Assembly (NCBI RefSeq): GCF_003340345.1
Contig: NZ_PPTQ01000011.1
Span: forward strand, 1-64,000
Direction: 5' to 3'
Origin: Paraeggerthella hongkongensis
Lineage (GTDB): Bacteria; Actinomycetota; Coriobacteriia; Coriobacteriales; Eggerthellaceae
Length of the DNA stretch: 64,000 bases
In this document: in pieces, positions 90-48,284 of the stretch
Numbering within the stretch: position 1 is the stretch's first letter
How the letters are laid out: the number at the start of each line of letters is the position of its first letter
The notes under the pieces: generated by a model
What the model saw: only the letters and a program-made list of their open reading frames with translations
What the model was told of the DNA's origin: nothing
Databases searched by the model: none
Position numbers and translations under genes: made by a program

Positions 90-241
90 GGTTCTGTCAA
101 AACGGACGAGTTTTGCGGCGGTTTTTCGTCTTGCAGAGAGATGACGCTGCGGGGCGTTTTTCATCATGCCTGGTCAAAAGGCTGCTTGTTGCATTTATCC
201 TGATTCGAGAACCAGCAAAACTCGTCCGTTTTGACAGAACC
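90..241. repeat. Dispersed inverted-repeat element, copy R1
   Basis: Positions 90-116 and 215-241 are a perfect 27-bp inverted repeat whose arms contain CAAAACTCGTCCGTTTTG, itself a small palindrome (CAAAAC/GTTTTG). The interior (117-214) is exactly 98 nt and aligns without gaps to the interiors of copies at 16040-16189 and 44109-44254, sharing GCGTTTT, CCTGGTCA and TTTATCCT blocks. It lies downstream of the groEL stop. No open reading frame inside it is credible. Positions 1-89 hold nothing I can name. Confidence 0.85.
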
Positions 242-16039: not shown

Positions 16040-16189
16040 CCGCTGTCAAAACGAGCGAGTTTTGCTGGTCCTCAAATGAGGATAAAGCCACATCGCATCT
16101 CGATGACCAGGCACGATGTAAAACGCTTGTCAGCAACCCACGGCGTCAGGGCGAAAAATCCCCGCAAAACTCGTCCGTTTTGACAGCGG
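16040..16189. repeat. Dispersed inverted-repeat element, copy R2 (reverse orientation)
   Basis: Terminal arms 16040-16065 and 16164-16189 match at 24 of 26 positions. The interior (16066-16163) is exactly 98 nt. Read on the minus strand it aligns gaplessly with copies R1 and R3, with shared GCGTTTTACATCG, CCTGGTCA and CTTTATCCT. It lies in the divergent region between the amidohydrolase and radical SAM genes. Confidence 0.85.
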
Positions 16190-16270
16190 ACCCGCGCGGC
16201 ACCCGCAAAACTCGTCCGTTTTGGCAATCCAGCGGCACGCACCCGCAAAACTCGTCCGTTTTGGCAGCGG
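16161..16270. repeat. Tandem 40-nt units of the R2 terminal arm
   Basis: ACCCGCAAAACTCGTCCGTT begins at 16201 and again at 16241, and a near-identical unit begins at 16161. This is three units with an exact 40-nt period: 26 conserved bases plus 14 variable ones. A decayed fourth unit (GCGCAAAACTTGCTCGGCA) is at about 16301. The unit equals the right arm of element R2. Confidence 0.85.
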
Positions 16271-22048: not shown

Positions 22049-22200
22049 TGCACGATTCTTCCCCCAATGTTGCGTTCGAAGGACCTGCCAAGAGGCAACC
22101 TTCGATGCGATCGCGCGTTTCGCCTGGTCGCAGGTTGTTCGCTGTCGGCAGAAAGGCTTCGGCATGCACTCGAACGCAACATTGGGGGAAGAATCGTGCA
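22049..22200. repeat. Large perfect inverted repeat, copy R5
   Basis: A 31-bp perfect inverted repeat at 22049-22079 and 22170-22200 (arms contain TTCCCCCAATGTTGCG) encloses 90 nt. The interior holds GCGCGTTTCGCCTGGTCG, resembling the GCGTTTT...CCTGGTCA core of elements R1-R3, although the arms are unrelated. It lies between the convergent ends of menG and kdpE. The 417-base gap holds no supported gene. Confidence 0.85.
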
Positions 22201-30604: not shown

Positions 30605-31033
30605 CGTGGTCCTTCCTTCTTCTTTACGTTGCGCAGGTTCCGCGCGGATGCTGCCCCCGAGAGGAGCGACCCGTGCCGCGCGAAACCCTCGTGTGGCGAT
30701 ACGGCAGAAACCGGCAGGTCAACCCCCGTTCGCTCGGGGCTAGCAGTGCGCGCCGGGACACCGCCACATACTCAGCATAGAAGGGAGCGCGCAAGCATGG
30801 CGTAAAGATGCCGGCGCGAACGTTAAGATGGGATAAAGACGATCGAGAAAGTTGAAGCGAGCTGCGGTTGGTCCGCTGTTGCGGCGCGGGGCGCGGGGCG
30901 CGGGGCGCAGCATGGCACACCGAGACGGAACGCGGGGCGCGGGGGCGATCATGCGGCGCGGCCGGCCAACCGGTTCGCCGCCATCGCGGCGCGATGCCGC
31001 CAGCCTCGGCCCTCCGCCCCCTCGCCACCCGGT
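30605..31033. other. kdp upstream region
   Basis: Contains the kdp promoter and a GC-rich 5' leader of unknown length. I looked for a cyclic-di-AMP riboswitch, known ahead of some potassium-uptake genes, and could not recognise its conserved blocks. No coding frame here is convincing. Confidence 0.4.
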
Positions 31034-31241
31034 TGCGCACGAAAAACCGACTTCGCTGGCAGGTTTTGACGGTTTGAAGTCGTCGAGATTGGCGCCGCCC
31101 CCGTTGCCGTTCGGCTTGCCTTTCGTTATGCCTGGTCACAGCGCTGGGCTGCTGTGCTGCGCTTTCGCGGGCGCTTACCCGGTCGGCTCAAACGACCTCA
31201 AACCGTCAAAACCTGCCAGCGGGAGCGTTTTTTCGTGCGCA
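31034..31241. repeat. Large imperfect inverted repeat, copy R4
   Basis: Arms 31034-31083 and 31191-31241 are about 50 nt each and match at all but about seven positions. The strongest part is GCTGGCAGGTTTTGACGG extending through GGTTTGA. The interior contains CGTTATGCCTGGTCA, like the core of R1-R3, and the arms share GTTTTGAC/GTCAAAAC with that family. It lies between kdpF and the tsaBD fusion gene. Confidence 0.8.
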
Positions 31242-31530
31242 AGGCGCCGATCCCGGGCAAGCGAGGGCGATTTTCCGCGCGTACGCTGCCGTTTCGAGCA
31301 AACGAAGCGTGGTTCTCGGGCCGCCGACGGCGTCGACGGCGAGCGCCGACAACAAGCGCGAAGCGAAATCCCTCGACCCCGCGGCGCGCGCCGGGCGCGG
31401 CGCGGCAGACGTCTCGCCATCACGCAATTGTTGCTCCGACCGTTCCGCGCCGCGCGCCGCGCGCCCGCAGCAGGCCCGCAAGCCCCGAGCGACGCGCAAC
31501 CTCAAAGGAGAAACCTGGAGGACAGGCTTC
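31242..31530. other. GC-rich spacer without a supported gene
   Basis: Low-complexity Arg/Ala-coding DNA in all frames downstream of the tsaB-rimI-tsaD stop. No ribosome binding site, family similarity or clear terminator was seen. Confidence 0.4.
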
Positions 31531-44108: not shown

Positions 44109-44254
44109 CCTGTCAAAACAATCGAGTTTTGCGGCGATTTTCCGCCCCTGAGGAAGCAGCTTCTGGAACGCGTTTTACATCGCCCCAGGTCATGCAGCCA
44201 TCATAAGCCTTTATCCTGGTTTAAGGACCAGCAAAACTCGCTCGTTTTGACAGG
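44109..44254. repeat. Dispersed inverted-repeat element, copy R3
   Basis: Arms 44109-44132 and 44231-44254 match at 22 of 24 positions (CCTGTCAAAAC...CGAGTTTTGC). The interior is exactly 98 nt, as in R1 and R2. By hand count 65 of the 98 interior positions equal R2 read on its minus strand. It lies between the amidotransferase-like gene and fabH. The full 682-base spacer has no supported gene. Confidence 0.85.
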
Positions 44255-48228: not shown

Positions 48229-48284
48229 ATTGTCGCCCGAAACGTACGGTTTTCGAGCAGAAAGCGTACGTTTCGGGCGACAAT
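48229..48284. repeat. Perfect 20-bp inverted repeat upstream of the MATE gene
   Basis: ATTGTCGCCCGAAACGTACG (48229-48248) and its exact complement (48265-48284) flank 16 nt. The loop itself can pair further (TTTC/GAAA). There is no U-tract. It lies between the MATE start and the birA stop and might be a terminator, an operator or a member of the repeat family. Confidence 0.85.

Follow-up and report, generated by a model that had tools for sequence, protein, structure and literature searches.

The inverted-repeat element of this stretch of Paraeggerthella hongkongensis DNA belongs to a superfamily of short repeats in which the arms are interchangeable and the centre is fixed, and in which, across many genera and in families unrelated to each other, both ends lie whole B-DNA turns from that centre. 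Literature searches turned up no account of repeats like these in Eggerthella or Coriobacteria, and the element family, which extends across an order of gut Actinobacteria, is apparently undescribed so far. The window, by which we mean the whole 64,000-nt stretch that was analysed (contig NZ_PPTQ01000011.1, positions 1 to 64,000), holds five members in total (Table 1). Three of them (R1, R2 and R3, here called family i) had been picked out in a first-pass annotation made from the sequence alone; the other two, at 22049-22200 and 31033-31242, went unrecognised there as belonging to the same superfamily.

Table 1. Superfamily members in the window and their parts. Scores and E-values are from the second of two covariance models (R2 model).
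Feature	Position	Strand	Score or spacing
Family-i element R1, 142 bp, TG...CA ends	95..236	+	98.8 bits
R1 arms	95-116 and 215-236		inverted repeat reaches out to 90-241
R1 central box, CCTGGTCA	169..176	+	74 bp to left end, 67 bp to right end
Family-i element R2, same length as R1	16044..16185	-	98.0 bits
Central box of element R2, CCTGGTCA	16104..16111	-	
Two tandem right-arm extras beside element R2	16205..16263 (16205-16223, 16245-16263)	+	
Member whose arms (TGCACGATTCTTCCCCCAATGTTGCGTTCGA) are unrelated; perfect inverted repeat of 31 bp, total length 152 bp	22049..22200	+	E 0.0012
Box of the 22049-22200 member, CCTGGTCG	22123	+	74/77 bp from ends
Element of a second multi-copy family; TGGCAGGTTTTGACGGTTTG in its arms, TTGCGCACGAAAAACCG as outer extension	31033..31242	+	E 2e-6
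Box of the 31033-31242 member, CCTGGTCA	31131	+	74/87 bp to inner TG ends 31057, 31218
Family-i element R3	44111..44252	+	95.2 bits
Central box of element R3, CCAGGTCA	44185..44192	+	

The perfect 27-bp inverted repeat 90-116/215-241 enclosing 98 nt, which the first-pass annotation described at R1, is present as reported, and the 98-nt interior recurs at 16040-16189 (in minus orientation) and 44109-44254 when it is measured on the homologous arm core; the arms of these two copies are about 90% complementary. The blocks named there as conserved correspond to true columns of a gapless 32-sequence alignment. The arm motif occurs eight times in the window, against none in 100 shuffled windows. The member at 31033-31242 forms a 51-bp inverted repeat. 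The extra single arms near element R2 lie about 40 bp apart, and tandem arms are likewise seen in two other genomes (G058, G113). An inverted repeat at 48229-48284, starting near TGTCGCCCGAAACG, has near-perfect 24-bp arms and a loop of 8 bp; it matches the R2 model weakly on both strands and may be an internally deleted member.

The proposal of a dispersed, non-autonomous inverted-repeat element is borne out, with many more copies, by the whole genome (G000; 2.86 Mb in 53 contigs), where the arm pattern has 75 sites, nearly all paired at exactly 117 bp. Family i alone is represented by 34 full copies, with a core of 136 bp in 32 of them, 135 bp in one and 146 bp in one. These copies align gapless across 156 columns with a median interior identity of only about 61%, and their arms grow outward by copy-specific complementary bases. 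The R2 model finds at least about 60 distinct elements in this genome, in several arm families. Copies are almost all intergenic, with one predicted overlap among 20 extra loci (home-made gene calls), and they show the terminal inverted repeats, lack of coding capacity and multiple occurrence by which MITEs are defined. Elsewhere in the bacterial family the arm pattern is absent save for two lone matches; among all sequenced species, the exact pattern returned P. hongkongensis and otherwise chance matches or unrelated repeats only.

Building a covariance model and scanning relatives with it had been proposed along with the original description. Such a model made from the Paraeggerthella copies (R1 model) found full-length relatives in 15 genera, and the R2 model found relatives in 189 of the 397 genomes of the order (64 of 123 genera). 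Arm sequences are unrelated from one genus to the next, but each pair remains complementary over 15 to 45 bp; within one genome, too, families have unrelated arms. In all, 68 arms fall into 40 clusters with no 10-mer in common. The inverted-repeat layout is kept throughout, and so is a central box that reads roughly TTTnCATnnTnCCWGGTCA. A complete genome of inferred genus Eggerthella (G055) carries one family of about 15 copies, again with a 98-nt interior. These copies also have a conserved tATGA-N9-TCA immediately outside the left arm only, which could be an additional binding site or a promoter -10. Phage and plasmid collections yielded no convincing relative. In a Planctomycetota MAG, JPMR_metabat.7 (JAKPGL records), a similar 9-mer pair belongs to an inverted-repeat element that is unrelated to this family; the MAG has over 20 almost identical copies of it, each about 120-126 bp long with CTGGAGTTTTGCAAA at the ends.

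The lengths of 134 R2-model matches cluster at about 143, 154, 165, 176, 187 and 198 bp, and the gaps between these values are empty. For quantisation at 10.5 bp, the Rayleigh p is about 1e-26 over all 134 matches, a test that counts paralogues and in which relatedness inflates p-values; it is about 2e-11 in genomes outside those that prompted the idea, and about 2e-8 in the tails alone. Distances between ends and centre are stepped as well: the TG end lies 63/64, 72-77 (mostly 74), 83-86, 94/95 or 105 bp to the left of the box, and the right end lies 55-58, 65-68, 74-77 or 86-89 bp beyond it, with best periods of 10.5 bp on the left and about 10.1-10.5 bp on the right. When each distance is counted once per genus, the ladder captures, with a tolerance of 1.6 bp, 17 of 19 non-reference distances on the left (binomial p about 1e-7) and 27 of 33 on the right (about 2e-9); the choice of anchor is partly free in families with several TG steps, a freedom absent from the length test, which rests on model boundaries only. 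The window members and 20 further elements of the same genome, read after the ladder had been seen, nearly all fit it, with left/right spacings of 74/67, 74/76, 74/77, 74/87 and 84/66, and one of 72/74. An added helical turn takes about 10.5 bp in B-DNA and about 22 nt in RNA. B-DNA phasing of this kind points to a looped nucleoprotein complex and makes a structured RNA less likely.

Copy number is about equal in the genome of a sister species (G076), the only congener compared. At least 26 own copies pair by their flanks with a copy at the same site there, always in identical orientation, and several others that seem unshared do exist in G076, cut by insertion sequences (ISs) at contig ends. 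The suggestion that the element spread recently thus fails. No substitution falls in arm columns 21-28 and 130-137 in any of the 21 gapless orthologue pairs, compared with 17-22% in variable interior columns and about 20% in the flanks, and the length of the element has changed about ten times less often than expected from the rate of gaps in the flanks. Copies were found via their arms, which biases arm conservation upwards; this bias cannot fully explain it, because nearly all own copies are accounted for. Since arms and centre are strongly conserved at orthologous sites while flanks have diverged by about 20%, the Paraeggerthella copies are old and sequence-constrained locus by locus, and they are either still in use or kept by the host.

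To the reading that these are non-autonomous, transposon-like elements working as a paired-end DNA loop, with copies now maintained in Paraeggerthella, we give about an even chance. Each element would be a short non-coding double-stranded DNA with three parts predicted to be contacted by protein, namely two end sites and a centre. The putative end sites are inverted, with TG...CA ends and lineage-specific arms of about 20-50 bp, and the candidate central site is asymmetric (CCWGGTCA flanked by TTTnCAT). One protein, as a dimer, would bind the ends and another, perhaps a bending protein, the centre, so that the element closes into a loop with both ends on the same face. Less firmly, a transposase or recombinase acting in trans may spread the element, the loop being its paired-end complex; in that case only in-register lengths could ever move. 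Arms would then drift apart with diversification of the end-binding protein, the partner at the centre staying as it is. That the elements are mobile is something we infer.

Quantised lengths and phased end-to-centre distances speak for this looped mobile element, and it also accommodates an interior that stays at 98 nt in Paraeggerthella and in G055 despite sequence divergence, TG...CA terminal inverted repeats, a dispersed and mostly intergenic distribution, and several arm families within a genome. Locus-level arm conservation and the rarity of length changes among Paraeggerthella orthologues fit copies that are maintained, and the same length logic has been published for Paramecium internal eliminated sequences (IESs), in a paper that cites it for IS50 too (PMC3464196). 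Other results count against this reading. In G000, G076 and G055 no autonomous partner sharing the ends turned up, all arm sites there being short pairs, single arms or IS-cut copies, and the own genome has no Y1 transposase (PF01797, RAYT). No target-site duplication was seen at copies. The search for empty-site orthologues that the first-pass annotation had recommended was run; it gave deletions, and a different member at one locus, but no precise empty site. Orthologous sites in Paraeggerthella are filled or deleted, and one Eggerthella orthologue has shrunk to fused arms through an internal deletion, so that losses resemble deletions. Conservation site by site in Paraeggerthella is unexpected for a spent mobile copy, and the copy-specific outward extension of arms is unlike an ordinary transposon end.

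The main rival is a host-maintained DNA-loop site, with a chromosomal protein on the arms and a second on the centre, whose loop organises the nucleoid or tunes nearby transcription; the sites would have spread long ago and now be a property of the host. Looping explains helical phasing equally well here, and purifying selection at each locus, a length fixed between two species and the keeping of the same loci all speak for it. So does one intergenic locus (G055:C2:58534): three Eggerthella species (the others being G052 and G053) each have a different member there, the arms being unrelated, and G054 has none. We nevertheless think this explanation unlikely, if the strongest of the alternatives. 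Copies show no gene-orientation preference beyond local background (home-made gene calls), and the 43 elements of G055 show neither replichore orientation nor an ori-ter gradient. Most tested loci do not share the element between the Eggerthella species compared, which speaks for a mobile element and against a host site, and each genome holds several unrelated arm families. The same lack of polarity in G055 led us to reject a replichore-polar site, and the lack of any relation to gene orientation a terminator or promoter role.

Much less probable is that these are ordinary decayed MITEs whose apparent length ladder reflects common descent and chance. Related copies do share lengths, and kinship inflates the p-values. 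However, the ladder survives when each distance is counted once per genus, on restriction to held-out genomes and on restriction to the tails, and orthologous copies are conserved instead of decaying.

The first-pass annotation offered a structured RNA as its other possibility, with the arms as an outer helix and small hairpins inside. Arms that remain complementary while unrelated in sequence would suit this, as would the small inner dyads GGCG-TTTT-CGCC and TATCCT-AGGA and a TATGAT-like box before the left arm in Eggerthella copies. Length steps of one DNA turn are hard to obtain from RNA helices, however, and the interior column pairs that rank highest are mostly non-complementary and look like subfamily correlation, not clean covariation. 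Nor do family-i arms show a GU-strand asymmetry: counted at fixed positions, GU and AC mismatches number 47 and 48 in them and are about equal in other genera (41 and 33), but 20 and 8 in two families of the own genome. Copies bear no relation to gene orientation, and an Rfam search gave no match. We regard a structured RNA as slightly less probable still than decayed MITEs. An inverton, in which the arms are recombinase sites and the interior is an invertible promoter, is suggested by intergenic inverted repeats of about 20 bp and is highly implausible, given that 0 of 26 orthologue pairs are flipped relative to their flanks and that orientation is unrelated to genes. A coding role was likewise rejected: frames cross some copies in Eggerthella and in G087/G088, and the Paraeggerthella centre has no three-base substitution pattern.

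To our knowledge, Paramecium IESs are the main known case of helix-quantised lengths over natural elements. A bacterial counterpart in which three sites are phased would offer a cheap genetic readout of nucleoprotein-complex geometry and a starting point for a protein search, and the elements make up part of the large intergenic regions of these genomes. IESs are short DNAs whose lengths fall in steps of about 10 bp, explained by a looped transpososome-like complex (PMC3464196). They share this length distribution with the present elements, but are eukaryotic and unique-copy and lack long arms or a centre box, whereas here phasing also holds relative to a central site. Precedents for DNA loops include the IS50 helical-twist experiments, the lac and ara loops and the Hin enhancer (cited in PMC3464196), in which two or three bound sites depend on helical phase; those are single loci or constructs, in contrast to natural elements across an order. 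More tentatively than the looped mobile element itself, we consider it possible that Coriobacteriia harbour a new class of three-site DNA element, served by a dedicated end-binding protein family and a conserved centre-binding factor, which would amount to a natural helical-twist experiment: the centre and the register would be constant, and arm specificity would diversify both inside a genome and from one genome to another.

Among bacterial small repeats, Correia/NEMIS, RUP, ERIC, RPE and YPAL have been reviewed together (PMC2229807). Some contain an IHF site internally, which may be analogous to the central box. MITEs and other small mobile repeats are alike in being 100-200 bp long, dispersed, mostly intergenic and bounded by inverted repeats (PMC2229807). 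In contrast to them, the present elements have TG...CA instead of TA ends, no visible target-site duplication and quantised lengths, and the superfamily keeps its centre and register while the arms become unrelated. ERIC, with a 127-bp enterobacterial consensus, is set apart by its description (PMC2229807), differing in host order, ends and arm layout. REPINs with RAYT (PMC3116915) also have two inverted repeats, a variable spacer, conserved arms and several families per genome, but a REPIN/RAYT system was rejected on the missing RAYT gene; a conserved centre, a fixed and phased length, and perfect arms of up to 45 bp in relatives of the element are further differences.

Some details of individual copies may be added. 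One contig end in the own genome (G000:C52:1-172) folds back perfectly around an element, probably an assembly artefact arising from the hairpin. An IS3-like IS (rve transposase plus HTH_21) is inserted in an element arm at G000:C34, about 104325-105860, with the junction CACCCCC|AAACTCG and an apparent 4-bp AAAC duplication; the same junction recurs at four G076 sites (C3:154893, C10:118, C32:1035 and C39:102), which suggests that ISs prefer the arm as a target. Finally, at G000:C34:176952-177116 a family-iii element is nested between outer arms TGGGCGCGAATCGGGACC, which also bound an Eggerthella element in G052, making this arm family common to two genera.
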